51,730 nucleotides of DNA from Clostridiaceae bacterium (GTDB lineage: Bacteria; Bacillota; Clostridia; Oscillospirales; Acutalibacteraceae). The DNA is taken from assembly GCA_016285645.1 (NCBI GenBank), contig JAEERC010000008.1:1-51730 (forward strand). The letters run 5' to 3'. This document shows, piece after piece, positions 3,249-42,980 of this stretch. The notes below the pieces were generated by a model. It was not told the DNA's origin, did no database searches, and saw nothing but the letters and a program-made list of their open reading frames with translations. The position numbers and the translations under genes were made by a program. Each line of letters opens with the position of its first letter. The first letter of the stretch is position 1.

Positions 3249-4499
3249 ATGAAAGAGTCAAATGTTTTAGAATATAAAGAAAAAATCACCAATACATTTC
3301 TTAAAACAGTCAGTGCATTCGCGAATTTCGGAACGGGAGAAATAAAGTTCGGAATTACCGATTCCGGCAAGCCGGTTGGAGTTAATGAACCTAAGTCTGC
3401 CTGCCTGGATATTGAAAACAAAATAAACGACAGTATTTCCCCTAAGCCGAGATATACGCTTTCGGTTAACAGTAATAACATTATTACCCTGACAGTATAC
3501 GAAGGACTTAATAAACCATATTTATATAAATCAAAAGCTTATATCAGAAACGATACATCTACTGTTGAGGTTGATGCTGTTGAACTGAGACGGCTTTTGC
3601 TTGAAGGCCAGAATAAATCATTTGAAGATCTGCCTTCAAAGACTCAAAATCTAAAATTCAGTGTACTTGAGCAAAAGCTGAAAGAGCAGATATCCATTAA
3701 AAAACTTGATGAAAACATATTGAAAACCCTTGAATTGTATTCTGATGATGAAGGTTATAATATTGCCGGTGAGATCCTTGCGGACAAAAACAGCTTTCCT
3801 GGAATTGACATTGTGCGCTTCGGTGAAAGCATTGATATCATTATGGATAGAAAACTCTGTGAAAAAACATCCTGCCTTGCCCAATTTGATGTTGCCTGTG
3901 AAATGTTCAAAAAGTATTATCAGTATGAAATAATTGATGGTATGCTAAGAACGGAAAAAGAACTTATCCCCGAAAAAGCATTCAGAGAAGCTGTCGTTAA
4001 TGCTATAGTTCACAGAACATGGGATGTAAACGCAAATATCAGAGTCTCTATGTTCAAGGATAGAATCGAAATCGTTTCTCCCGGCGGTTTGCCTCATGGA
4101 ATAACAAAAGAAGAATACCTCGCAGGTAAGCTTTCAATTTTAAGAAATCCGATTATCGGTAATGTGTTTTTCCGGCTTCATCAGATTGAACGGTTCGGAA
4201 CCGGAGTCAAAAGAATAAACGAAGCTTACACCGACAGCGAAATAAAACCAAGGTTTGAAGTGTCAGATAATACAATCAGTGTAATTTTGCCTACTGTTGA
4301 AAAAGAAATACCTTTAAATGAAGATGAAAAAACGATATACACATTTTTGAAAAACAATATTGCCCTTTCGAGTTCTGAAATAGCTGAAGGATGCGGGTTC
4401 GGAAAAACAAAAACCGTCAGCATTTTAAAGAATCTTGTCAAAAACGGCTATATTAAAACAACAGGAAATGGTAGAGGAATCAAATACATTTGTGATTAA
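3249..4499 (+). CDS. AlbA_2 / RecG-like putative transcriptional regulator
   Basis: The 416-aa product begins with an AlbA_2 (Schlafen-type) domain at about residues 1-115, including the typical FANFGTGEIKFGITDSGKPV. A GHKL-type ATP-binding-like module follows at about 240-335 (FREAVVNAIVHRTW, then RFGTGVKRINEA), with a winged helix at about 350-416 (SSSEIAEGCGFGKTKTVSIL). Proteins of this build are often annotated as 'ATP-binding protein' or 'RecG-like' but have no helicase domain. They are usually DNA-binding regulators. ATG at 3249 follows a GGAG at 3237-3240. The recombinase gene starts 18 bp downstream, so the pair is probably one operon. This protein may bind the GAACG sites upstream of it (inference). 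Confidence 0.8.
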   Translation: MKESNVLEYKEKITNTFLKTVSAFANFGTGEIKFGITDSGKPVGVNEPKSACLDIENKINDSISPKPRYTLSVNSNNIITLTVYEGLNKPYLYKSKAYIRNDTSTVEVDAVELRRLLLEGQNKSFEDLPSKTQNLKFSVLEQKLKEQISIKKLDENILKTLELYSDDEGYNIAGEILADKNSFPGIDIVRFGESIDIIMDRKLCEKTSCLAQFDVACEMFKKYYQYEIIDGMLRTEKELIPEKAFREAVVNAIVHRTWDVNANIRVSMFKDRIEIVSPGGLPHGITKEEYLAGKLSILRNPIIGNVFFRLHQIERFGTGVKRINEAYTDSEIKPRFEVSDNTISVILPTVEKEIPLNEDEKTIYTFLKNNIALSSSEIAEGCGFGKTKTVSILKNLVKNGYIKTTGNGRGIKYICD

Positions 4500-4517
4500 G
4501 AGAAATCAGGTGAAACG

Positions 4518-6068
4518 ATGAACGCAGTAATCTATGCCCGATATTCATCCGACAATCAGCGCGAAGAATCTATTGAAGGTCAGATAAGGGAATGCACCGA
4601 ATTCGCAGAAAAGAATGATATGGTAGTAATTGAACACTATATCGACCGCGCTTTTTCAGCAAAAACCGATGACAGGCCCGATTTTCAACGGATGATAAAG
4701 GACAGTGAAAAGCATAAATTTGAAGTCGTAATTGTTTGGAAGCTTGACCGCTTTGCGCGTAACAGGTATGACAGTGCGAATAACAAAAGAATACTTCGTA
4801 AGAATGGTGTAAAGGTAGTTTCGGCAACCGAGCAGATTGCAGATGGCTCTGTCGGAATACTCATGGAATCAATTCTTGAAGGTTACGCTGAATTCTATTC
4901 TGCAGAGCTTTCGGAAAAGATACGCAGAGGTCAGACCGAAAACGCACTCAAAGGCAAAACCAACGGCGGCGGTGTTCCTTTCGGATATGTGCTCAATTCA
5001 GAGCAGCGTCTTGCCATTAATCCCACAACGGCACCGATTGTTCTTGAAATATTCCAAAGATATGCAAACGGAGAAACCAAAAAGGAAATAGCTGCGGATT
5101 TATCCAACAGAGGAATAAAGACAAAATCAGGCAACAGTTTTGTTCCGAACAGCTTCAATAAAATACTCTCTAACCGAAAATACATCGGCGAATTCAAATA
5201 CAAAGATATCGTTTTACCCAACATTGTTCCTGCAATTGTTCCCCTGGAATTATTTGAAACAGTTCAAAAGCGCCTGGAGAAAAACCATCGAGCGCCCGGA
5301 AGATTCAAAGCAAAGGAAGAATACTTACTTACCACAAAACTGTTCTGCGGAAAATGCGAGAGCATGATGGTGGGCGAAAGCGGAACAGGAAAATCCGGAG
5401 CAAAGCATTATTACTATAAGTGCGCAAGTGCAAAGCGTAAACGCGGATGCGATAAAAAAGCTATCAAAAAGGATTATATCGAAAATCTTGTTGTAAAAGA
5501 AACAACAGAAAAAATTCTGCGCGATGATGTGATTGAGCGTATTGCCGATGAGATAATGAGTATACAAGGTCAGCCCAATCCAACACTGCTTGCTTTGCAA
5601 AAGCAGCTGGAAGAGACAAATAAAGGAATTGAAAATTTCCTGAAGGCAATCCAACAGGGAATTATAACCGAGTCAACCAAACAGCGCCTTGATGAACTTG
5701 AAAAAGAGAAGGCTGAATTACAGATTGCTATACAAAAAGAGGAACTGTCAAAGTCCCTCTTAACCAAAGACGGTATTATTCAATACATTAACAAATTCAA
5801 ATACGGAGATAAAGATTCGATAGAGTATAAGCGAAACATCATTGACAATTTTGTGAATGCCGTTTATGTATTTGACGATTACCTGATTATAATATTCAAC
5901 TGTAAGGCCGGTACAAAGCGCGTCAGACTTTCAACGGCAAGTGAATTAAGCGGTTCGGATGTGGATACCCAGAGTCCACCAAAAAAACAGTCCGTCCAAA
6001 AGGACGGGCTGTTTTTGTTTTGGTTTATATATGGGGGTCGGCAAAACCGACCTCTTTTAACATCTTAA
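4518..6068 (+). CDS. Large serine recombinase (site-specific integrase)
   Basis: The 516-aa product has the order of large serine integrases. The resolvase catalytic domain is at about residues 2-150 (YARYSSDNQREESIEGQI; nucleophile Ser10 or Ser11, with arginines in WKLDRFARNRYDS). The recombinase DNA-binding domain is at about 160-265. A zinc ribbon at about 275-335 carries CGKCESM and a later KCASAKRKRGC. A coiled coil at about 350-430 is followed by a C-terminal tail. It would catalyse integration and excision between attP and attB. ATG at 4518 has AGGTG upstream. The last 25 or so codons run through an intrinsic terminator (5987-6021) and read as low-quality protein, so the natural end may differ in the excised form. 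Confidence 0.93.
   Translation: MNAVIYARYSSDNQREESIEGQIRECTEFAEKNDMVVIEHYIDRAFSAKTDDRPDFQRMIKDSEKHKFEVVIVWKLDRFARNRYDSANNKRILRKNGVKVVSATEQIADGSVGILMESILEGYAEFYSAELSEKIRRGQTENALKGKTNGGGVPFGYVLNSEQRLAINPTTAPIVLEIFQRYANGETKKEIAADLSNRGIKTKSGNSFVPNSFNKILSNRKYIGEFKYKDIVLPNIVPAIVPLELFETVQKRLEKNHRAPGRFKAKEEYLLTTKLFCGKCESMMVGESGTGKSGAKHYYYKCASAKRKRGCDKKAIKKDYIENLVVKETTEKILRDDVIERIADEIMSIQGQPNPTLLALQKQLEETNKGIENFLKAIQQGIITESTKQRLDELEKEKAELQIAIQKEELSKSLLTKDGIIQYINKFKYGDKDSIEYKRNIIDNFVNAVYVFDDYLIIIFNCKAGTKRVRLSTASELSGSDVDTQSPPKKQSVQKDGLFLFWFIYGGRQNRPLLTS
5987..6021 (+). terminator. Intrinsic terminator inside the recombinase 3' end
   Basis: Eleven-base arms (5987-5997 and 6002-6012) with one wobble pair and an AAAA loop are followed by TTTTTGTTTT. 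It lies within the open frame, about 50 bp before the stop codon. Confidence 0.85.
6036..6058 (+). terminator. Second, weaker terminator hairpin
   Basis: GGTCGG (6036-6041) pairs with CCGACC (6047-6052) around CAAAA and is followed by TCTTTT. It also lies within the recombinase frame. Confidence 0.55.
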
Positions 6069-8733: not shown

Positions 8734-8764
8734 GGACTGACATTTGCTCTTCTTTTTGTCCGCT

Positions 8765-8878
8765 CGCGCCGAAAAAATATCCGTTCGCGAAACAAATCAT
8801 ATTCCGCCTCTTTTTCGTGTTATTGTTTGTCTGCAATCAAACAAAACAAAAAACTAATTACGAAAGGGAGAATGAATT
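8765..8878 (+). promoter_or_regulatory. Conserved leader of the first microprotein operon (copy A)
   Basis: About 115 bp upstream of the microprotein align with the region upstream of its paralogue at 30072-30186. Shared blocks include CGCGCCG, TCGCGAAACAAA, TTTTTCGTGTTATT and a TGCA-TCA-AC block. The match ends in a Shine-Dalgarno and a start context reading AATTATGATGATTTT in both. No canonical sigma-A promoter is clear in the shared part. Confidence 0.75.
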
Positions 8879-9007
8879 ATGATGATTTTCAGTTTTGTTT
8901 TCACGGTTGCGGCAGTTGCCGCAGCAGGCATTGCAATTTGCAGTTCGGACGAATCCGACAAGGCGGCAAGAGCCCTTGCGGATATGAGCACCGCTTCACG
9001 GTGCTGA
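8879..9007 (+). CDS. 42-aa membrane microprotein (copy A)
   Basis: This short gene encodes a 42-residue peptide: an N-terminal hydrophobic segment (about residues 2-21; FTVAAVAAAGIAIC) and a short charged tail (SSDESDKAARALADMSTASR). A GGGAG lies 8 nt before ATG at 8879. A paralogue of the same length lies at 29943-30071, with about half the residues identical and the pattern CS-D-SDKAA-AL shared. In both places the next gene downstream encodes a large secreted protein with a protease-like domain; here it starts 18 bp after the stop. The cysteine is not in a standard lipobox, so I favour a single-pass membrane peptide. I know no family. It could be a translated leader or a partner in secretion of the downstream product. 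Confidence 0.75.
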   Translation: MMIFSFVFTVAAVAAAGIAICSSDESDKAARALADMSTASRC

Positions 9008-9025
9008 GAAAGAAAGGAGGTATTA

Positions 9026-12000
9026 ATGGTGAAAAACCTCATAAAAAAATCAATAGCACTGGCACTTGTAATCCTGACTCTTTTTTCAACTGCAAGCATA
9101 TCATCAATTGATTTAGACTTTTTTAGAGTTAAAACTTTTGCGAGCACATCGACTCCATATTATAATTGGAAACAATACGATTCACAATGGGGTAATAAAA
9201 CAATTGGCACAAAAACTATAAGTCAAATCGGATGTGCAGCAACATCAATCGCTATGTTGATTGTTCACTCCGGACTTAAAAACGAATCAAATTTCGATCC
9301 CGGAACTTTCGTATCTTCAATGAAAAATGTTGGTGGCTTTAAGAACAACGATATTATTTGGGGCAAAGTCGGCTCAGCTGTTCCAGGATTTGAATATTAT
9401 ACATCATATACTTTTTCTGATAAAACATCTTACAGCAATAAGGTCGCTAAAATAAAATCATATGTTGACAATGGTTATTATGTCGTTGTAACCGTTAACA
9501 ATTATGGTCACTATGTCGCCGTATACGGAGCAACAGATTCAAAAGTAACCATGATGGATCCCAACACTTATTCCTCAGATCTTTCATACTATTACAATTC
9601 CGGAATAGTTAATTTGAGGGTATATAGTTCCTCAGGAAACGGTTATGATGGGGGAAGCGGTTATGTTGAACCGGATGCCTCTTCGTTATCATTAAGCGGA
9701 GCATCTATTCCTTCCTCCATTTCACGAGGATCCGGTTTTACCGTAAAAGGAACAGTTTCATCCAACTATAATCTTGAATGGGTATATGCCGCGATCAATT
9801 CTTCAGACGGCACTCCGTTATATATTTCTTCAGCATCCCCTTACACCAAATCATATAATCTGAATAATTTTGACAGCGCTTTAAAATTCGGAGCTCTCGG
9901 CGTCGGAACATATACATACCATATCGAAGCAACAGATGTTTCCGGAAATTTCAAAGTGTTGAACTCTACAACATTTACGGTTACCGGGAAAACCGAGGAT
10001 GATATTTCATCTTCATCATCGCTTTCATTAAACTCATACAATTATCCGCGGCAATTAACTAAGGGCTCCTCATTTTATTGTAAGGGTATAGTTAATTCAA
10101 CTTATCCTTTGGAATGGGTTGCGGCATACATCAAAAACTCTTCCGGAAATGTAGTATATATCGGTTCTGCAAGTCCCTATACAAAGAGTTATGATATCAG
10201 CACAACCATCGATGCCGCTCTGAAGTTTCCTTATTTATCAGCCGGTGATTACACATATTTTGTTGAAGCAACCGATAACAAGCATCATTATGAAATGCTG
10301 TTAAATCAGTCGTTTACCGTAGAACAGAACGGTGAATGGAACATAAGTTTCCCCGGCATTCCGGAAACGCTTCCTTACGGTTATGACTATGACATTTCCG
10401 GAACTATTACGGCACCCAGACCGTTTGAGTATGTTTGTGTTTTCTTCTACAATTACTCAACAGGAAAACAGGAACAAGTTTATATGGTCGACCCCGGAAC
10501 ATCATCATATAACCTTGCAAACTTTAATGAAAAAATACATTTTGAAAACCTTTCTCCGGGAACTTACAGTTTTCAGGTTGAAGCAACAGATTACGATCAT
10601 GTGTTTAAAGTTCTGTCTCAAGGCACATTTACAATCGCTTCACCCTCTTCAATCAATTATAATGCAAACGGGGGAACTGGAGCTCCTTCAAGCCAGTCAA
10701 AGCCTTACGGAAAAGATATAACATTAAGCAGCAGCAAGCCCACCAAGTCATATTACTTAATATACGACCTCGATGGCGGAAGCGCAAACAATATAAATAC
10801 ATCTGTAACAGCAAACTGCACATTCATTAACTGGATAAACGCAAAAACTGGCGCAACATATGCACCGGGCACGGTATACCATGAGGCTGAAGGTGCCGAT
10901 CTGATAGCCCAGTGGAAAAACCCGACGGTAGAGTTGTTTACTCCCACCAAAGAGGGATATGTATTTAAAGGTTGGTATGATTATAATAATGCAACAGCGG
11001 TTACAGGTTCAACCTATGAACTGCAATCAAACACCACCTTAACTGCCGTCTGGGCTGATGAAACAAATCCCGCTGTTTCATATTCCTCAACTAATAACAC
11101 TTCTGCTGTTCAAACATTAACTCTTTCTCTTTCTGATAATGTCGGTATCGACGGTTTTTATTGGGGAACAAGTCAAAACTATTTAGAAAACGCATATACT
11201 TCAATTGAATCGTCTCCTAAAAGCGCAACGGAAAAAATAAATATTAATAACAATGGCAAGTATTATCTTACTGTCATTGATACATACGGAAACATTTTTA
11301 ATAAAAATTTCTCGTATTATAAAACTGTTTATAGTGCAAACGGCGGAACAACTCCTGTAAACAGCGTATTGACCTTATCCGGCAAATCCTTCACCCTGCC
11401 GAAGCCGGAAAAATCCGGCTATATCTGCACGAGATGGAACACAAAGGCGGACGGTTCAGGCACAGCTTATGCTGTAGGCGCAAAGTACACCGCGACTAAC
11501 AATGTAACTCTTTATGCGCAGTGGACGGAAGACACCGTTTCGGGCATAAAAGTTAAGTCCGAACCGACAAAACTCATCTACTTTAAGGGTGAAACACTCG
11601 ACACAACCGGTCTTGTTGTTGCCGCAACCTATGTCAGCGATAAAACCGAAAATATTTCAAGCGGCTTCACCTGCAGCCCGACAAAACTCAACTCAACCGG
11701 CACTCAGACAATCACCGTCAGCTACATGGGATTTACAACAGATTTTGAAATCACCGTAAAGCCGTTGACAGTAACCGGTATCGCAATCAGAACGACTCCC
11801 GCCAAAACAGATTACTATGTCGGTGACGCTCTCAACACATCGGGTCTTACCTTAACAGTGTTCTATGACAACGGCAGCCAGAAAGCAATTAGCAGCGGCT
11901 TTAACTGCACCCCGATGACATTCAGCACCGTCGGCACACAGACAATCACCGTTACTTACGGCGGAAGCATCGCGACATTCGCCGTAAATGTTTCGGCTGT

Positions 12001-13084
12001 TCCCGCGGCGAGTCACACCATAACATTCGTTGTTGACGGCAGAACTTACTCAACGGCGGTCTATAAGACCGGCGAAGGAATACAGCTTCCCACCGAACCC
12101 GTCAAACCCGGATATAAATTCCGCAACTGGAATCCCCTGGTTCCCGCATCCATGCCCGATGAAGACATAACCGTTGAGGCGGTATTCAACCCGATTAAAT
12201 ACAACGCAGTATTTACGGCAGACTCAACGACCGTGGCGGTTATTCCTTACACAGTCGAAACCCTCAGCATAACCGAACCCGCCGTACCGAGCAAAAACGG
12301 ATATAACGGCAAGTGGAGCGCATATTCGCTCGATGAGGGCGGAGTAACCGTATATGCTGTTTACACGCCCAAAACATTTACCGTTCCGGTTGTTGCCGAC
12401 GGCAGAAAAATAGCGGAAGCAACTTACACATACGGCGACACGGAACTTGTAAACCTGCCCGCCGTTCCCGAAAAAGCCGGATACACCGGCAAGTGGGAAT
12501 ACAATCTTACCTCTGACGGCGCTCAGGCAAATGCGATCTATACCGCTGTTACATACTACGCGACATTTACCGCGGACGGTCGGAAAGTCGGCGAGAGGAT
12601 ACCCTTCACTGTTGAAACCCGCAGCATTAACGAACCCGATGTTCCCTCAAAGAGCGGCTATACCGGCAGATGGAACGCTTACACTCTTGCGGCAAACGAC
12701 ATCACGGTAACCGCGGTTTACGAGTTAATCAACACTCCCGCCGAACCTTCAGGAAGATCTGCGACCGTATCAATCAGAAACTTCAGGTCAACTGTTACCG
12801 AGGATTATAAATCCACCCTGACATTCACGGCTGTAACATCGGATATTCCCGAAGGCGCGACAATTCACTGGATTATAAACGGCAAGGATATGGGCACGGG
12901 CGAAACCTACACCGTTGAAAGAGCAACCTCAGATTATAATGTTCAGATTAAGGTTGTAGGCGCCGACGGCAGCACAGTTGCCGAGTCCGAAACCGAAACC
13001 GTCAAAATCAGATCCGGTTTCCTTGAAATGCTTATAGCATTCTTCAGACAGCTGCTCGGTTCCTTACCGGAAAACAAGCAGTAA
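9026..13084 (+). CDS. Large secreted C39-like peptidase with Ig-like and InlB-type repeats
   Basis: The 1352-aa protein has a signal sequence (about residues 1-38) and then a Peptidase_C39_2-like domain (about 42-202) with Cys70 in QIGCAATS, His162 in GHYVAVYGA and Asp178 in MMDPNTY. Three Ig-like repeats of about 105 residues follow (about 217-320, 328-433, 437-538), each with EWV near the start and YTY or YSF plus a VEATD-like motif near the end. InlB-B/Flg_new-type repeats come next (from about 542), then two Big_3-like domains (about 839-990; VSGIKVKSEPTKL and VTGIAIRTTPAKT). More InlB-like repeats and an amphipathic end (LIAFFRQLLGSLP) finish the protein. There is no LPxTG. AAAGGAGG precedes ATG at 9026. 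The 5' half is AT-rich and the 3' half is not. Substrate unknown. Confidence 0.85.
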   Translation: MVKNLIKKSIALALVILTLFSTASISSIDLDFFRVKTFASTSTPYYNWKQYDSQWGNKTIGTKTISQIGCAATSIAMLIVHSGLKNESNFDPGTFVSSMKNVGGFKNNDIIWGKVGSAVPGFEYYTSYTFSDKTSYSNKVAKIKSYVDNGYYVVVTVNNYGHYVAVYGATDSKVTMMDPNTYSSDLSYYYNSGIVNLRVYSSSGNGYDGGSGYVEPDASSLSLSGASIPSSISRGSGFTVKGTVSSNYNLEWVYAAINSSDGTPLYISSASPYTKSYNLNNFDSALKFGALGVGTYTYHIEATDVSGNFKVLNSTTFTVTGKTEDDISSSSSLSLNSYNYPRQLTKGSSFYCKGIVNSTYPLEWVAAYIKNSSGNVVYIGSASPYTKSYDISTTIDAALKFPYLSAGDYTYFVEATDNKHHYEMLLNQSFTVEQNGEWNISFPGIPETLPYGYDYDISGTITAPRPFEYVCVFFYNYSTGKQEQVYMVDPGTSSYNLANFNEKIHFENLSPGTYSFQVEATDYDHVFKVLSQGTFTIASPSSINYNANGGTGAPSSQSKPYGKDITLSSSKPTKSYYLIYDLDGGSANNINTSVTANCTFINWINAKTGATYAPGTVYHEAEGADLIAQWKNPTVELFTPTKEGYVFKGWYDYNNATAVTGSTYELQSNTTLTAVWADETNPAVSYSSTNNTSAVQTLTLSLSDNVGIDGFYWGTSQNYLENAYTSIESSPKSATEKININNNGKYYLTVIDTYGNIFNKNFSYYKTVYSANGGTTPVNSVLTLSGKSFTLPKPEKSGYICTRWNTKADGSGTAYAVGAKYTATNNVTLYAQWTEDTVSGIKVKSEPTKLIYFKGETLDTTGLVVAATYVSDKTENISSGFTCSPTKLNSTGTQTITVSYMGFTTDFEITVKPLTVTGIAIRTTPAKTDYYVGDALNTSGLTLTVFYDNGSQKAISSGFNCTPMTFSTVGTQTITVTYGGSIATFAVNVSAVPAASHTITFVVDGRTYSTAVYKTGEGIQLPTEPVKPGYKFRNWNPLVPASMPDEDITVEAVFNPIKYNAVFTADSTTVAVIPYTVETLSITEPAVPSKNGYNGKWSAYSLDEGGVTVYAVYTPKTFTVPVVADGRKIAEATYTYGDTELVNLPAVPEKAGYTGKWEYNLTSDGAQANAIYTAVTYYATFTADGRKVGERIPFTVETRSINEPDVPSKSGYTGRWNAYTLAANDITVTAVYELINTPAEPSGRSATVSIRNFRSTVTEDYKSTLTFTAVTSDIPEGATIHWIINGKDMGTGETYTVERATSDYNVQIKVVGADGSTVAESETETVKIRSGFLEMLIAFFRQLLGSLPENKQ

Positions 13085-13307: not shown

Positions 13308-14042
13308 ATGCGAAACGACGAGGGGCTTATAATCGGCAGGAACGCCGTGTCGGAAGCGCTTAAAAGCGGGCGCGAGATTGACACGCTTCTCGTGGCGAAG
13401 GGCGAGCGCGACAAGGTCGCCTCACGGCTCATAGCCGCCTGCCGTGACAGGGGTGTTGTTGTTAAAGAGGTCGATTCCCGCAAGCTGGACAGCATAAGCG
13501 CGGGCGCGAACCATCAGGGAGTGTGCGCCTACGCCGCGGTTCACGGGTATTCAAGTATTGAGGATATGCTCGCCCTCGCGGAAGAAAAGGGCGAAAAACC
13601 GTTTATAATAGTCTGTGACGAAATTGAGGACCCGCACAATTTGGGCGCCATAATCCGCACGGCGGACGCCTGCGGGGCGCACGGGGTCATAATCCCGAAA
13701 AGGCGCGGCGTCACCCTCACATACGCCGTGGGCAAGGTGAGCGCGGGCGCTCTCGAATATGTGCCCGTGGCGAGAGTGGCGAATCTCGCGGCAACTCTTG
13801 ACGATTTAAAGGAAAAGGGCTTCTGGGTCTACGGCGCCGATATGGACGGCACGCCCTGGAACGAGCAGGATTATTCGGGCGCCGTCGCCCTGGTAATCGG
13901 CTCGGAGGGGAAGGGAATCAGCCGCCTTGTAAAAGAAAAATGCGATTTTATCGTTTCACTGCCCATGAAGGGGCATATAAACTCCCTCAACGCCTCGGTC
14001 GCGGCGGGGATTCTTATGTATGAAGTTGTAAGGAGCAGGTGA
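13308..14042 (+). CDS. rlmB: 23S rRNA (guanosine-2'-O)-methyltransferase, TrmH/SpoU family
   Basis: The 244-aa protein is an RlmB-type enzyme that methylates a 23S rRNA guanosine ribose using S-adenosylmethionine. An L30-like substrate-binding domain spans about residues 1-80. The SPOUT knot follows with the three family motifs: DPHNLGAIIRTADACGA (about 107-123), ALVIGSEGKGISRLV (about 192-206) and SLPMKGHINSLNASVAAGI (about 215-233). CCGGAGGG precedes ATG at 13308. Its stop overlaps the upstream signal of the next gene (14048), so at least two genes are coupled. The exact target base is assigned by family only. Confidence 0.92.
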   Translation: MRNDEGLIIGRNAVSEALKSGREIDTLLVAKGERDKVASRLIAACRDRGVVVKEVDSRKLDSISAGANHQGVCAYAAVHGYSSIEDMLALAEEKGEKPFIIVCDEIEDPHNLGAIIRTADACGAHGVIIPKRRGVTLTYAVGKVSAGALEYVPVARVANLAATLDDLKEKGFWVYGADMDGTPWNEQDYSGAVALVIGSEGKGISRLVKEKCDFIVSLPMKGHINSLNASVAAGILMYEVVRSR

Positions 14043-14047
14043 TTGAT

Positions 14048-17000
14048 ATGAGTGACAATTTACTTAACAGCAACGACCTTGACGCTCTGCTTGCGGAAAT
14101 CAAGGGCTATTCCGTGCCCGGAACCTCGCCCGCGCAGGAGAGCGTGAGCGCCGCCACGCCGAAGGACTGGTCGCTCGACGACATCGACGCCCTGCTCGCG
14201 GATCTCGACTCGCCCTTTGAGGAAAAGCCCGCGAAGGAGCCGAAACCCGAGCCCGAGCCGGAACCGGAAAAGGAGTATGTCGCAAAAGAACTGGCTCAGT
14301 TCCCTCACGAGGACACGCCCGTTGACACCTTTTTCCGCACGGACGCGAAACCCGCTCCCGTCCAGATAGAAAAGGAACCGGAACCCGAGCCGGAGCCCGG
14401 GGAAAAGGCGGAGGAGCCCGCCCTGCTCTATGAGAGCGAGATGAGCGAGGATGAGATAAACAGTCTGGTGTTCTCGCTTTTCGGCGGCTTTGACCCCTCG
14501 GCTGAAACCGCGCCCGAAGAAAAGGCGCAGGAAGAGCCCTCCGAAACGCAGGCGCAGGCACCCGCGATCTCCGACGCCCCGGTAAATACGGCTGAGCCGC
14601 AAAAGGAAGTGGAAAAGGAAGAGGATGTTTTTGACAACATCTTTCCGCCCGCTCCCGAGGCCGCACCTCCCGCTCCCGTAAACAGTACCGAAGCCCCCGC
14701 GGCAGAGGAAACGGAACCCGATGAAGAAAAGCCGATGGGCGAAATACGCGAGTTTTCGCGCTCGAAGGCGAACGCCCGCAGACTCGCCGGCTTTGTTATA
14801 AATGAACAGACTCCCGAGCCCGAGGAGGAAGAGGAGGAAGACACCGACAGAATCCCCGACTACGACCCTCTCGCGCAGTATATGGCGATGCAGAAGGAGA
14901 GCGAGCAGGCGGGTATGCTCACGGACGAAAACCGTGAAAGCTTCATAAACCCCATGCAGCTCGAGCACACTGCGGAGATTGACAACGACTTTCTCGAGCC
15001 GTTCGATAAGCCCGGCATAATCGTTAAAAAGAGCCAGTATCAGATGACCTCCGACCTTGACCCCCTGCCGACGGTTATTTCGGCGGACAAGGCAAAGGAG
15101 GACGCGCATACAAGAATAGCCGGCGAAAAGAAAGCGCCCGTCAGCGAGGAGCCCGTCAATGAGGAATTCCCCGGTCAGATAAAACTCTCCGGCTTCGATC
15201 CCCCGCCCGAAATGTCGCCCGCCGACAATCCGCAGGAGGAAATTGAGGCGAATCTCGCCGAAAACCGCAGAATAAAAGCCAAGGATTTCAAACTCGCCGC
15301 TTCACACCTCGCCGCCCTGGGCGATGACGAAATAGGCGAAATCGAGTTTGAGAATCTCGACGAACCCGAGAACAAAGACGCCCCGGAGCAGCAAAGCCCT
15401 CAGCCGCGCAAAAAGCCCTCCCGCGGCAGACGCCTCTACTCTCTTATCTCCTCGCTTCCCGAATACAACGAGCCCGCCGACCGCAGACGCGTTCACTCGG
15501 CGCTCAACGCGGCGTCCGTCATCAGTCTGAGGCAGGTTTTTGTTGACGCGCTGATCGAACTGGCGCTTATCATATTCAATGTTGTTCCCTATTTCGCCGA
15601 GAATTCGTCGGTATTCTGCAGAGGCGGAGTCGGCATCTATACGGCGAACGCCCTGCTTCTCATAGCGGCTATGGTCTTTAACGCGAAGATTATGCTTTCG
15701 GGCTTCAGATCTCTTGTTTCCGGCAGACCGGACGCGAGAAGCGCCGCGGCGATTACTGCCGCCCTCGCGTTCATTCACACCACGGTCACAGCCGCTGTTG
15801 AACTCAGTCAGAACGGCGAGGCACCCGTGTTCGCCACCCTCGGTGTGTTCGCTTTCGCCGCGGTCAGCCTTTCGGATTATTTCAACGCGAAACGCGCAAT
15901 CAAGAATTTTGAACTGTGCGCCTACAAATATGAAAAGAAGCTCTACACCGTTCACGGCTTTGACAACGAGACGGAACTTCGCGAGCTCAGCCGCAACCTG
16001 ATGCTCGAAAAGGCGGATATCCTCTATTCGTCCAAAACGGATTTCCCCGCCAATTTCCTTAAAAACTCCGAAAACTCAGCCGTCGAGACCAAGGCGGTTA
16101 CGAGGATTCTTCCCATAGCCGGCATTTCCGCCGTAATCACTCTGATTGTCAGCGCGATTATTTCAAGGGACGCCATGGTTGCCGTGTCCGCGGGCTGCGG
16201 AGCCTTCTGTCTCGCCGCGCCGCTGTTTGCCGCCCTTGTGCCCGCCGTGGCTGTAAAATCGGCGAACTCCTCGCTCAACAGGTCGGGCGCCCTGCTCACG
16301 GGTCTCGATGTTGCCGAGGATTTCAGCGCGACAAACGCCGTTGTTATTGACAGCGCGGATATATTCAACCGCAAGAAGTGCCGTATGCACGGTATGGTCG
16401 ATTTCAAGGAAATACGAATGGACGACCTGCTTGTTTACGCCGCCGCCCTCGTCATCAAATCGGGCGGTCCCCTGCGCGAGTGCTTTGAGAGCATAATCAG
16501 CGAGGATCACAACCTTCTGCCCACCGTGCGCGACCTTGTGTATGAGGAAAAACTCGGCATATCGGCAAGAATCCACTCGCAGAAGGTGCTGCTCGGCAAC
16601 CGCGCCCTGCTTCAGAACCACAGCGTCAATGTTCCCGACAAGGCGCTTGAGGATAAATATACAAAAACGGGCAAGCGCGTGCTCTACCTCGCGGTGTGCG
16701 GCAAACTCGCCGCAATGTTCGTGGTAAGCTACGCCGTTGACCTCAAGCTGCGCTCAACCCTCGAAAAACTCGAGGACGCGGGTATAACCATTATGGTTCG
16801 CACAAATGACGTGAATGTCACCCAGGACCTTCTTTCAAGGGGCTTCGGCATTCCCAAGGAGGCGTTCTGCGTACTCGGAAGCGTCGCGGGCCGCCTGTTC
16901 GGCAACCGCCGTGATGAGGTAAGCCCGTTTGCCGATATCCGTATGGGTCACGACGGAACGGCTCATTCGATGCTCCGCGCCGTAACAGCCACCCTCGCCC

Positions 17001-17182
17001 TTCTCAAAAACGCCGAGTTCGGTGTGTTTGTGCAGATAGCCCTGAGCGTTATGAGTTTCGCGGTGTGCGCCATTCTCGCCGCCACGGCGAAGGTTCCCGG
17101 CGCAATCGCCTCTTTCCTTATTGCCTCGGTTCTCGGAACCGTTGCATACTTTACATCGGATTTCATAAACAGAAAGGATTGA
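14048..17182 (+). CDS. Degenerate P-type-ATPase-like membrane protein with long acidic N-terminus
   Basis: The product has 1044 residues. Residues 1 to about 470 are acidic, Pro/Glu-rich and probably disordered, with short repeats DLDALLAEI and DIDALLADL near the start. The rest follows the topology of P1B-type ATPases: four membrane helices (about 497-625), a short cytoplasmic part, two helices (about 688-737), a large cytoplasmic part and two C-terminal helices (about 990-1040). Remnants of the family are visible: CGAFCLAAP at the CPC position (Cys717, Cys721), VVIDSADIF at the DKTGT site (Asp768), LLGNRALLQ at the nucleotide-domain GN (850-851) and VRTNDVN at the TGD site (919-921). The KTGT, TGE and GDGxND motifs are missing, so ATP-driven transport is unlikely. 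ATG at 14048 is preferred (AGGTGAT just upstream); GTG at 14039 is an alternative. The ddh gene follows after 4 bp. Confidence 0.8.
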   Translation: MSDNLLNSNDLDALLAEIKGYSVPGTSPAQESVSAATPKDWSLDDIDALLADLDSPFEEKPAKEPKPEPEPEPEKEYVAKELAQFPHEDTPVDTFFRTDAKPAPVQIEKEPEPEPEPGEKAEEPALLYESEMSEDEINSLVFSLFGGFDPSAETAPEEKAQEEPSETQAQAPAISDAPVNTAEPQKEVEKEEDVFDNIFPPAPEAAPPAPVNSTEAPAAEETEPDEEKPMGEIREFSRSKANARRLAGFVINEQTPEPEEEEEEDTDRIPDYDPLAQYMAMQKESEQAGMLTDENRESFINPMQLEHTAEIDNDFLEPFDKPGIIVKKSQYQMTSDLDPLPTVISADKAKEDAHTRIAGEKKAPVSEEPVNEEFPGQIKLSGFDPPPEMSPADNPQEEIEANLAENRRIKAKDFKLAASHLAALGDDEIGEIEFENLDEPENKDAPEQQSPQPRKKPSRGRRLYSLISSLPEYNEPADRRRVHSALNAASVISLRQVFVDALIELALIIFNVVPYFAENSSVFCRGGVGIYTANALLLIAAMVFNAKIMLSGFRSLVSGRPDARSAAAITAALAFIHTTVTAAVELSQNGEAPVFATLGVFAFAAVSLSDYFNAKRAIKNFELCAYKYEKKLYTVHGFDNETELRELSRNLMLEKADILYSSKTDFPANFLKNSENSAVETKAVTRILPIAGISAVITLIVSAIISRDAMVAVSAGCGAFCLAAPLFAALVPAVAVKSANSSLNRSGALLTGLDVAEDFSATNAVVIDSADIFNRKKCRMHGMVDFKEIRMDDLLVYAAALVIKSGGPLRECFESIISEDHNLLPTVRDLVYEEKLGISARIHSQKVLLGNRALLQNHSVNVPDKALEDKYTKTGKRVLYLAVCGKLAAMFVVSYAVDLKLRSTLEKLEDAGITIMVRTNDVNVTQDLLSRGFGIPKEAFCVLGSVAGRLFGNRRDEVSPFADIRMGHDGTAHSMLRAVTATLALLKNAEFGVFVQIALSVMSFAVCAILAATAKVPGAIASFLIASVLGTVAYFTSDFINRKD

Positions 17183-26944: not shown

Positions 26945-29863
26945 TCAATATGTGCCTACACTGTCGGGACTTGATTCGTAATACATTCTGTTGCTTACCG
27001 TGATTCTGCCGGCGGCATCCATTGAGAACACCTCCCATACAGTGCCCTTGTGATTAACGGGTACCGAGTATGTGGCAATCAGGCTGTCGCCCTGGTAAAC
27101 CGCCACGGTCGCTCCGGAATCCGCAAGGTTGAACGCTTCCGCGTCTTCGCTTGTCGCGCCGAGGTCGCTGAAATTGTGAACGCAGTATTTGAACGAGGTA
27201 ACCTTTGACATATCAACAACGGTCACGGTTTCGGGACCGTAGGAGCTTGTGTCGTCAACATCGAGCCAGCAGACGGGGTCGCCGTATTCGGTGGCGCCTG
27301 TTTCGTCAATGCTGTAGCCGATTCCGTTGTTCTCATAGAAGCCCTGGCTGATGTAATAGACATGGAAGCGGTTGCCGCTTGTTGTGCTGCCCACGATGTG
27401 GGAGTCAAGATCTCTCGGATTCTCGCCCCAGGAGAGGACTATGCGGAGCTGATTGTCCGAAAGCTGCTTGCTGAGGGCTATGTCGCCGCAGTTTACGGTG
27501 CCGTTGGGAACAACCACAACCGTAAGGTATCTTGTTACATAGCCGCCGTTGCCCGCGATTTCAAGAACATAGGTGCCTGCGGGGGCAACGAATGAGAACT
27601 GACCGTTTGTAAAGGTCTTTGTCTGATAGATTTCGCCTGTGGCGCTGCCCGCGTGGATTGAGTATCTTCCCGATTCAACGGGCTGACCGTTCTGGGCGTC
27701 AACGAATCTGCCGCTCGCAACGCCGGTGGCGTCCGTGATTTCAACCGCCTTCTTGACGGCGAGACCCGCGTTAAGCATTCTGTATGAGCCGCCGTGGACG
27801 CTGTCGTAAGCGCTTGTTGTGCACTCGTCGCTGCAGATGATATCCTTGATTTCCTTCATTGAAAGGGTGTTGTTGATTGACCATACGAGGCCTGCAACCG
27901 CCGTAACGTGGGGAGCCGCCATGGATGTGCCGGACATATATCCGTACTGTCCGCCTGTATATGTGCTGTAAATATAAACGCCGGGAGCCGCTATATCTAC
28001 TTTGGAGCCGTAGTTTGAGAAATCCGCGAAGGAATAGCCGCGATTTGTTCTGGAGTTTTCAACCGCCGCGACAATGATTGTGCGGTCGATGAGATCCTGA
28101 GCCGTGAATCTTGTTGTCGCGTAGGAGATGTCGAGGTCGCTGCTGAGAGCGCAGCACCAGCCGTTTCTGCTCGCCTGAACGGCGTCGTTGCCCGCCGCCT
28201 GAACAATCAGGAAGTCATAATTATCTTCAAGAAGCTCGGCCATCGGGATTACCGCATATTCAGCCGATTCTCTTCTTTCGCTTTCTGAGGATGTTGTGCA
28301 GCCGAGGCTCATATTTACAACCTTCGCGCCGTTTACAACCGCTCTGACTATGCCGTCCTGAATAAGAGCGCCGCTGAGCCAGGGACCGCCTGTGCCCGCT
28401 TCGGCAAGGTACATATCAGCGTTCCAGTCAATGCCGGTTAAGCCCGCGCCGTTGTTCGCCTTTGCCGCAATTGTGCCTGTAACATGTGTGCCGTGGTCGG
28501 ATACATATCCCGAAATGCCGTTGTCGTTTACTATTGAGTAGCGCTGGTTGGGGCCGTCTCTCAGTTCGGTGTGGGTGAGGTCAAAGTCGGAATCAACAAC
28601 GCCTATTCTCGCCGGCTGAGCCGCGAGGCGGTCGTTATATTCCCAGGCGTCTTTGATGTCGATTGCCTCAAGGCCCCAGTTGCTGCCGTCAACATCGCTG
28701 TCGTTCCAGTCCGTGTATGAAACATCGCCGTTCCAGGGGTCGGAAACGCTGATTGAATCAACATCCGAAAGTTCCTCGAAAAGAACAGTGCTTACTTTGG
28801 AGTCGCTTTCAATCTGAGTCTTCTTCTGCATAAGGTCGTCATAGCCGCTGACTCTGAAGGAGACCTGATACATTCTCATAAAGTTGTTCTGGCCGATTAC
28901 GGTGCCGCCGAAGGAGGCGATTTCTGAAAGGGCTTCGCTGTTGGTTACGCCTTCATTGAAATATACAAGAAGAACGCCCTTGCGGTATGATGTGCCGTTG
29001 TGATCCTCGAAATCGCCGTCGCGGGGAACCGAAATTGTGCCCATATCGTATTTAATGTTGACCGATACGCTCTTCGCGGCGCCGCTTGAGTCGGTGGCTG
29101 TGACTGTGACCTTGTTGAGACCGGTCTTCATTCTTACAGCCGCGTTCCAGTTTGTGCCGTCAACCACAACCGCGCTTTCGGGTGAGGTCTGACCGTCAAC
29201 ATCGGTGTAAACTTTGTAATTTACGCCCGTAAGACCGAGGTCGGAGCTTATTGTGCCGCTGATGTTCGCCGTAACTTCCGTTGAGGTGAAATCTCTCTGA
29301 TTTATTGTGAGGTTTATGTTGCTCTGCGACGGGTTGTCAACGGGGTCGGGGTTTGAGCTCGAGCCGCCCGTAACATCAAAGCCGAACCAGAATTTGAAAA
29401 CATTTACCTTGACCTTTATTGAAGCGTCGTAGTTTGAGGGGTCAAACGCCATGGGGGAGATGAAATCGATAAGGTAGTAAAACGGAAGCACTACAAAGCG
29501 CTGGAAGGCGTTGGGTGTGCTTGACTGAACCCTGATGATTACATCCTTTGTTTCGCCGGGATTGATTGAATCAACCGTAACGGTGTTGGATTCGCCGTCA
29601 TAGAAGAATTTAACCTTGTTTGCCGAGGCGCGGATTTTAAGATTTCTCTGCACCCGGTTGCTGAGGTTTGTAACGTGGGCTTTGAAAACGACTATGTCGC
29701 CCCAGTAGTAAGCCCCGCTTTCGGATTCAACGCGTAAAAACACGCTCGCCGTTTTTTCCGGGCTTGCCGAATCCGCCGCTTTTGCCGCCTGTGCCATTGC
29801 CGCGGGTGCCAGGATGCCCATGAGGGCCGCGATTGCCAGTAAAATGGAAATGATTCGTTTCAT
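26945..29863 (-). CDS. Secreted subtilisin-like serine protease (S8), multidomain
   Basis: The 972-aa protein has a signal peptide (MKRIISILLAIAALMGILA) and N-terminal Ig-like regions to about residue 270. A pro-like segment of about 100 residues follows. The S8 domain (about 400-700) has the triad Asp424 (GVVDSDFD), His457 (DHGTHVTG) and Ser647 (SGTSMAAPHV). A carboxypeptidase-regulatory-like beta domain (about 710-790) and a C-terminal domain with LRIVLSWGENPRDLDSHI complete it; the latter resembles YfaP/DUF2135-type modules. There is no LPxTG, so release or non-covalent retention is likely. GGAGG lies 8 nt before ATG at 29863. It is 79 bp downstream of the second microprotein gene. Confidence 0.92.
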   Translation of the reverse strand: MKRIISILLAIAALMGILAPAAMAQAAKAADSASPEKTASVFLRVESESGAYYWGDIVVFKAHVTNLSNRVQRNLKIRASANKVKFFYDGESNTVTVDSINPGETKDVIIRVQSSTPNAFQRFVVLPFYYLIDFISPMAFDPSNYDASIKVKVNVFKFWFGFDVTGGSSSNPDPVDNPSQSNINLTINQRDFTSTEVTANISGTISSDLGLTGVNYKVYTDVDGQTSPESAVVVDGTNWNAAVRMKTGLNKVTVTATDSSGAAKSVSVNIKYDMGTISVPRDGDFEDHNGTSYRKGVLLVYFNEGVTNSEALSEIASFGGTVIGQNNFMRMYQVSFRVSGYDDLMQKKTQIESDSKVSTVLFEELSDVDSISVSDPWNGDVSYTDWNDSDVDGSNWGLEAIDIKDAWEYNDRLAAQPARIGVVDSDFDLTHTELRDGPNQRYSIVNDNGISGYVSDHGTHVTGTIAAKANNGAGLTGIDWNADMYLAEAGTGGPWLSGALIQDGIVRAVVNGAKVVNMSLGCTTSSESERRESAEYAVIPMAELLEDNYDFLIVQAAGNDAVQASRNGWCCALSSDLDISYATTRFTAQDLIDRTIIVAAVENSRTNRGYSFADFSNYGSKVDIAAPGVYIYSTYTGGQYGYMSGTSMAAPHVTAVAGLVWSINNTLSMKEIKDIICSDECTTSAYDSVHGGSYRMLNAGLAVKKAVEITDATGVASGRFVDAQNGQPVESGRYSIHAGSATGEIYQTKTFTNGQFSFVAPAGTYVLEIAGNGGYVTRYLTVVVVPNGTVNCGDIALSKQLSDNQLRIVLSWGENPRDLDSHIVGSTTSGNRFHVYYISQGFYENNGIGYSIDETGATEYGDPVCWLDVDDTSSYGPETVTVVDMSKVTSFKYCVHNFSDLGATSEDAEAFNLADSGATVAVYQGDSLIATYSVPVNHKGTVWEVFSMDAAGRITVSNRMYYESSPDSVGTY

Positions 29864-29942: not shown

Positions 29943-30071
29943 TTATTCCGGAAGTCTTGTGTCCGCCTCGACAAGCGCCATTGCCGCTTTGTCGGAATCG
30001 TCGCAGCTGCAGATTGCGAAGCCCGCGGCTGTAACCGCCGCCGCCGTGATAATAACGCTTAAAATCATCAT
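29943..30071 (-). CDS. 42-aa membrane microprotein (copy B)
   Basis: This is the paralogue of the peptide at 8879-9007, with identical length. A hydrophobic segment (about residues 2-21; LSVIITAAAVTAAGFAIC) is followed by SCDDSDKAAMALVEADTRL. AAAGGAG lies 8 nt before ATG at 30071, and both copies start with two Met codons. The next gene is the subtilisin-like protease. Copy A precedes a C39-like secreted protein, so the pairing with a large secreted product recurs though the product differs. Function unknown. Confidence 0.75.
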   Translation of the reverse strand: MMILSVIITAAAVTAAGFAICSCDDSDKAAMALVEADTRLPE

Positions 30072-30186
30072 AATTGTTTCTCCTTTTTTCTGAGTGTTTT
30101 TGTGTTTCGTCTGACTGCAATCAAAGAATAACACGAAAAAACACATAATCCCGTTTTGTTTCGCGGACGGGCGGTTTTGCGGCGCG
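30072..30186 (-). promoter_or_regulatory. Conserved leader of the second microprotein operon (copy B)
   Basis: This region aligns with 8765-8878 over its whole length, with small gaps. The best blocks are TTTTTTCGTGTTATTCTTTG and the last 15 bases before the second codon. No canonical promoter stands out. The flanking 30187-30263 shows no gene. Confidence 0.75.
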
Positions 30187-30263
30187 AACGGTCTGAAAAC
30201 ATTTTTTTCGTATAAAAACAAAAAGCCGGACAGCCAAGGGCGGTCCTTCATAAAACAGTAATG

Positions 30264-42845: not shown

Positions 42846-42875
42846 TAAAAAGCGGTACGCCCGTAAAGCATACCG
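42846..42875 (-). terminator. Riboswitch-controlled terminator before thiC
   Basis: On the minus strand, CGGTATGC-type arms (42875 to 42853, one wobble) around a short loop are followed by CTTTTTATTT. It lies just after the TPP aptamer, so TPP binding probably allows this hairpin to form. Confidence 0.85.
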
Positions 42876-42884
42876 TAAAAAAGT

Positions 42885-42964
42885 ATGTCCCTACGCCGGC
42901 ATTATCCGGATCAGGTTACGGGTCGGAGCGCACGCTCCCTCTCAGCCGCCTGGCAGCTCCCCTT
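42885..42964 (-). promoter_or_regulatory. TPP riboswitch aptamer (thi box)
   Basis: The minus strand carries the conserved thi-box segments in order: GGGGAGCTG, GGCTGAGAGGG, GACCCGTAACCTGATCCGG and ATAATGCCGGCGTAGGGA. It lies between the thiC promoter and a terminator, so it should stop transcription of thiC when thiamine pyrophosphate is plentiful. Confidence 0.97.
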
Positions 42965-42980
42965 TTTATTTGTCCGCATT

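Follow-up and report, generated by a model that had tools for sequence, protein, structure and literature searches.

The window, that is, the whole stretch of 51,730 nucleotides analysed here, carries two microprotein genes on opposite strands: microprotein 1, MMIFSFVFTVAAVAAAGIAICSSDESDKAARALADMSTASRC, predicted to be of the membrane type, at 8879..9007 (+), and its paralogue, microprotein 2, MMILSVIITAAAVTAAGFAICSCDDSDKAAMALVEADTRLPE, at 29943..30071 (-). The original prediction of two paralogous 42-aa ORFs at these places was confirmed; both products are exactly 42 aa long and are 57% identical across all 42 columns, and the ribosome-binding sites claimed for both have their counterpart in ribosome-binding-site-like sequences that precede each ORF. 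The BLOSUM62 local score of the pair is 115, versus 42 or less in 200 shuffles. The other small ORFs of the window (241 listed, 25–150 aa) score 36 or less against the microprotein, the second-ranked ORF in that comparison being the minus-strand microprotein itself, read from an earlier start. Paired direct repeats of the LytTR type, CCGCTCGCG-N12-CCGTTCGCG, lie at 8760..8789 (+), and an extended -10 box, TGTTATTGT, follows 28 bp past the second repeat (8818..8826, +); the minus-strand copy consists of the LytTR-type repeats CCGTTCGCG-N12-CCGTCCGCG (30162..30191, -) and the extended -10 box TGTTATTCT (30125..30133, -), with the same spacing.

Beginning 18 nt past the stop codon of microprotein 1, the plus strand encodes a secreted-type protein of 1352 aa (9026..13084, +) with a signal-peptide-like start, a C39_2-like peptidase region, Big_3 and Listeria-Bacteroides repeats; Peptidase_C39_2 was matched on the slice 9107-9670 (E-value = 7.2e-8) and is absent from the full-length scan at E <= 0.01. 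On the minus strand, 79 nt past the stop of microprotein 2, lies the gene for a secreted-type, subtilisin-like protein of 972 aa (26945..29863, -; Peptidase_S8, E-value = 3.5e-41). The DNA likeness of the window pair reaches about 110 bp upstream of the start codon, into the promoter, and the DNA match between cassette copies stops inside the microprotein ORF. The proposal that one unit was duplicated onto unrelated cargo is upheld, the C39_2 and S8 folds being unrelated, and the inclusion of the LytTR-type promoter in the duplicated unit better explains the common context than the original account did. Elsewhere in the window there are a TPP riboswitch (42871-42973, -; 62 bits), which is the sole Rfam match, an ORF of 1047 aa that matches nothing in Pfam at E <= 0.001 (14039-17182, +), and a Schlafen/AlbA_2 gene with a gene for a large serine recombinase behind it (3249-6068, +), a pair that is possibly the trace of a mobile element.

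Two further copies, C63:87470 (43 aa, with a converging gene next) and C66:95682 (67 aa), were found by a DNA search of the same genome. A profile made only of these four DNA-found copies and run against 45 genomes of the genus added C5:982 and C5:88229, copies in G007 that share a contig, and a single copy each in G036, G038 and G041. The E-values were 3.9e-9 to 8.3e-8 for C5:982, G036, C5:88229, G007:1329 and G038, and near 2e-6 for G007:21156 and G007:8264, while G041 (0.0014) and G007:8396 (0.029) matched weakly; further matches of this profile at E = 0.005–0.8 were not returned by a refined profile at E <= 0.01. The refined profile recognizes 12 places in five of the 45 genus genomes with E-values of 3e-22 to 8e-17, which are not independent because it contains 11 of its own 12 matches. 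Together with C66, the family has 13 members in these five genomes, so that the check for further homologues gave a positive answer. The members are 40–67 aa in length with one hydrophobic span each; in one of the 13 (G007 near 1329) the start region is out of frame.

The spread across Clostridia that had been envisaged was not borne out in the genomes sampled, where the family is narrow. Among 398 genomes of the family (a sample that includes some of the genus genomes), the profile at E <= 0.01 matched only four other genomes, G071, G119, G418 and G422 (E = 0.002–0.007), and these matches were judged to be chance and dropped, two of them being inside ORFs of 374 and 577 codons and the other two running across stops. 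In 394 genomes of the order (which include family genomes, so that the samples overlap), the own genome, i.e. that of the window, was the only match at E <= 0.001. The microprotein family is restricted to part of one genus as far as sampled; the short refined profile misses the divergent C66 copy, and absence elsewhere is accordingly not absolute.

As judged from substitution patterns, the microproteins are under selection at the protein level. The constraint for which a check had been proposed appears in a dN/dS of 0.20 for the window pair, with 0.12 and 0.21 against C63 (C21a, C21b and C63; 32-codon core), 17 of the 26 differences within the window pair fall at third positions, and pN is lower than pS in 64 of the 66 pairs formed by 12 members. 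Other pairs in the own genome give 0.30–0.96 (C21b/C66, 0.96; C5a/C66, 0.78; C63/C5a, 0.72), and three own-genome pairs are saturated in this comparison. All 12 intact members lack a charged residue at positions 1–20 and reach a hydropathy of 2.25 or more over 19 residues, and the net charge of the tail is negative in 10 of the 12, zero in one and +2 in one. Among 11 aligned members Gly and Cys are invariant, and Ser, Asp and Ala-Ala nearly so. AlphaFold2 predicts, with moderate confidence, a single helix for microprotein 1 (residues 3–41, mean pLDDT 73, pTM 0.32). The positive-inside rule serves to orient membrane peptides, and by this rule the net-negative tail suggests an N-in, C-out orientation with the negative tail outside. 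A lipoprotein was rejected, since there is no lipobox and the conserved Cys is preceded by I in eight and by V in three of the 11 aligned members.

No model in Pfam or NCBIfam, where short models are insensitive, exceeded its cut-off for 11 members, and NVEALA, TrbK and lipoprotein models all fell far under theirs. The Ala-rich N-terminus resembles NVEALA (PF14055) weakly in three of the 11 members, but the best E-value is 0.045 and the window peptide reaches 13.9 bits versus a cut-off of 27 bits, so it is not a member. PHROGs gave only scattered weak matches (best E-value = 0.0088, in one member), a PDB search of the microprotein gave nothing at E <= 1, and tblastn gave nothing at E <= 1 for P0002 in phages or P0001 in plasmids. 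In searches of the open-access literature on LytTR and small proteins, microproteins and small-protein families of microbiomes, no title or abstract among the matches listed describes the family. The earlier statement that no described family was known is upheld by the profile and PDB searches.

On the original account, each microprotein gene opens an operon and has the gene of a large secreted protein next to it. This is true of both window loci but is not supported as a rule: a signal-peptide-like ORF lies within 100 nt downstream in five of 12 operons (one of these ORFs, in G041, runs off the contig after 53 codons), whereas C63, G036 and G038 have no such ORF nearby. Such an ORF stands 103 nt away in G007 (near 1329), and more distant ones are found at 416 nt (C66), 329 nt (C5a) and 259 nt (the G007 tandem). 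The cargo folds, namely C39_2, S8, an LRR_5/dockerin protein (G007, 103 nt) and CHAP proteins, which sit at or further along the two C5 loci, are unrelated. It thus seems that the cassette brings several exported proteins under a common switch and is not bound to any one cargo.

These arrangements bear on two alternatives that tie the peptide to the gene behind it. It might be a membrane partner that helps in the secretion or maturation of the exported enzymes downstream, as the gaps of just 18–19 nt in two cases and the signal-peptide-like start of every non-paralogous ORF within 100 nt would suggest (5/5 versus 28/92 ORFs in six own-genome maps, by a crude rule, the 92 including cargo genes and one of the five being cut by a contig end). 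However, this is unlikely in view of the three copies that have no nearby partner, the 259–416 nt that separate the C66, C5a and G007 tandem copies from theirs, the unrelated cargo folds, and the sites at C5:86258 and in G001 and G016 that lead secreted proteins with no microprotein between. The same short distance, a short first ORF 18–19 nt from the next ORF in two operons, would also suit a leader peptide or attenuator, whose ORF merely tunes how the next gene is transcribed or translated; such a regulatory leader role, raised in the original prediction, is very improbable, because C63, G036 and G038 lack a close downstream gene and it is the amino acids, tail included, that are conserved.

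The promoter has the consensus CCGYTCGCG-N12-CCGYTCGCG, i.e. 9-bp direct repeats with a period of 21 bp at a set distance from the extended -10, and no -35-like hexamer was found in it at a 17-bp spacer. With the gap left free at 8–16, exact repeat pairs occur four times in the own genome, all with N12, and not at all in the reversed control (N12 was fixed by the search pattern for the remaining own-genome sites); a regular expression with a free -10 distance gave identical spacing in the own-genome sites. A stricter full pattern, with the -10 added and up to three mismatches, matched seven times in the own genome and once in the reversed control. A wider degenerate full pattern, again with up to three mismatches, matched 11 times and zero times, respectively, and its reversed control over 45 genomes gave five matches. 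After two 3-mismatch matches (L160 and L161) were dropped as apparently intragenic, nine own-genome promoters were accepted (0, 0, 0, 0, 1, 1, 1, 2 and 3 mismatches), of which the one at C5:88071 is weak, since it has three mismatches like the chance matches and the pattern was widened after it was seen. The 3-mismatch matches in G006, G014, G027, G033 and G042 and both matches in G039 were not counted as sites. No terminator is claimed after the C63 copy, since the hairpin seen there by eye is not listed on that strand by a consensus scan.

Six of the nine accepted sites lead a microprotein, and the other three lead an 87-aa ORF (C10), a 131-aa ORF (C38) and a secreted-type 542-aa ORF (C5:86258). 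A site is present in 10 of the 11 assessable microprotein operons (there are 12 in total, G036 being cut by a contig end), the exception being G038, which has no recognizable site upstream. Because four copies were found by way of their upstream DNA, the fairer count is 6/7, taken over the operons found by protein profile (C5a, C5b, three in G007, G041 and G038); even this count includes G007:8123, which was also found by DNA, and the weak C5:88071 site. The G's of the repeats stand at -50/-71 in 13 of the 15 listed sites and at -51/-72 in two (a standard -10 is assumed, and the spacings were partly fixed by the search pattern and partly found free), and of the three sites in G007 two are longer by 1 bp. 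The critical G's of RgaR are given as -51 and -72 in part of PMC10602386. According to passages of PMC6193735, published LytTR repeats are mostly 12 bp apart, those of S. mutans lie 4–11 bp upstream of the -35, and S. mutans hdrRM has an extended -10. This is strong circumstantial evidence that the layout is that of a LytTR response-regulator site (AgrA/VirR/RgaR), and the repeats are a putative binding site. In a passage of a published table, hypothetical proteins make up 11 of 15 strain-specific targets.

Small ORFs also stand behind sites of this type at other places. In C38 (L086:4359-5243, -) the promoter leads ORFs of 131 and 158 aa with hydrophobic N-termini, the second of which matches no Pfam model at E <= 0.1. 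LytTR-type sites lead other tiny ORFs as well, of 49 aa in G001 (L136:1630-1779) and of 66 aa in G041 (L153:1229-1429), so that such regulons may target small ORFs more generally. Upstream of the microproteins at L134 (G041) and L135 (G038), 5' leaders of about 100–150 nt look alike by eye (CAACAAAAACGC ... ACACTGATA ... AAGGCG ... AAAACGGGGGAT) and might represent a common RNA element.

Contig C10 of the own genome encodes a receiver-LytTR regulator (LytTR domain, E-value = 4.7e-23) and a GHKL, AgrC-like kinase with six hydrophobic segments. The C10 site lies directly 3' of the kinase gene and leads, with no microprotein, the 87-aa soluble-looking ORF (L073:5912-6175, -). In G007, an orthologous pair (71% and 63% identical to the C10 regulator and kinase) is arranged in the order regulator, kinase, LytTR-type site, microprotein and secreted-type gene. 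From the site geometry and the adjacency to the regulator/kinase pair in C10 and G007, we infer that the promoter would be switched on by a phosphorylated LytTR regulator. A second LytTR pair exists on C5 of the own genome, which makes the cognate regulator of each site ambiguous. Behind the kinase relatives of G016 and G001 (41%) stands a diverged repeat pair, C[GA]TTCATACCG, of unchanged spacing, which leads a secreted-type protein of 224–230 aa. A kinase scan of named relatives gave two more at 36%, both from ruminant-gut Clostridia MAGs, and inspection by eye of the 700 nt behind each kinase showed no microprotein. Three genomes that carry a microprotein, G036 (96% complete), G038 and G041, gave no kinase relative at E <= 1e-20. 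In the LytTR Regulatory System (LRS), a LytTR regulator is paired with a membrane inhibitor and there is no kinase; an LRS was rejected here, as the C10 regulator contains a receiver domain and its gene is next to that of a GHKL kinase.

The G007 gene order and the six hydrophobic segments of the kinase would also fit a peptide-signal precursor, in which a microprotein released from the membrane by a protease is sensed by the AgrC-like kinase in a positive feedback without AgrB, and the size and promoter of the microproteins are like those of pheromone genes. We regard this as rather unlikely, however, since the members show by eye neither a lipobox nor the usual double-glycine leader, each genome has several divergent copies, the kinases of the own genome, G001 and G016 have no microprotein behind them, and the peptide occurs in G036, in which that kinase was not found. 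AgrB (PF04647) was not found at E <= 1 in the own genome (97.88% complete), in a search that had no positive control over the cut-off (8/14 control genomes matched, 0 over it). A related and quite doubtful proposal is that the microproteins are a new membrane-borne signal or a direct ligand of the AgrC-type kinase, operating without AgrB, on a duplicating cassette that recruits secreted genes. A dedicated kinase ligand is disfavoured because G036, G038 and G041 have no kinase relative at E <= 1e-20 and because the target linked to the two-component system in the own genome is a different ORF.

Small hydrophobic peptides in several copies could also be membrane-active, i.e. bacteriocin-like or toxic, members of a LytTR regulon, and in the portions of PMC6193735 available, S. 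mutans bacteriocin genes are under LytTR regulators. This is improbable, since 11 of the 12 members have no GG pair, the pair of the twelfth is by eye not at the leader position, and no family match exceeded the cut-off.

Our best explanation is a LytTR-regulon microprotein cassette, in which promoter and microprotein have been duplicated together before different secreted cargo, and also where no close cargo exists. A phosphorylated LytTR regulator would turn on the cassette promoter, and the peptide would enter the membrane in the N-in orientation, leaving its mostly acidic tail on the outside, as an induced modulator there that acts on its own signalling or on the envelope response, not on one cargo, perhaps working as MgrB does on PhoQ. 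The family and the regulon are highly probable parts of this explanation and the whole of it, with the membrane-modulator peptide, is reasonably likely, while the role of the microproteins as modulators of the membrane or kinase, suggested by analogy, is tentative, possible and no better than that; six copies per genome would be odd for a feedback inhibitor. In short, the isolated pair of tiny ORFs can now be placed in a candidate regulon, for which there is a switch to search with, a candidate regulator and a set of related microproteins that are under selection; this set looks like a new small-protein family under a known kind of sensor system. The copying of a promoter together with the first small gene suggests how unrelated secreted enzymes could be put under one sensor, and the cassette offers a testable case for small membrane proteins in the two-component circuits of uncultured Clostridia-type bacteria.

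Among known systems, MgrB is, in the available text of PMC2789325, a 47-aa membrane peptide that controls a system and is itself part of that system's regulon. The microproteins would be analogous to it as small membrane peptides, by prediction, in the putative regulon of their own system, but they exist in several copies per genome, and no relationship in sequence is claimed. With agr (AgrBDCA) they share a GHKL kinase and a LytTR regulator that a small peptide gene can follow, as in G007; however, no AgrB was found in the own genome and the peptides match no known precursor model. The closest layout is that of the LytTR regulons (AgrA, VirR/RgaR and S. mutans HdrR/BrsR), for which the passages seen of PMC6193735 and PMC10602386 describe a LytTR-domain regulator, repeats spaced by 12 bp and an extended -10, and which likewise have secreted proteins and small genes among their targets. 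Here, in contrast, the repeat is CCGYTCGCG, 6/9 of the accepted sites lead one microprotein family, and promoter and microprotein have been copied together.
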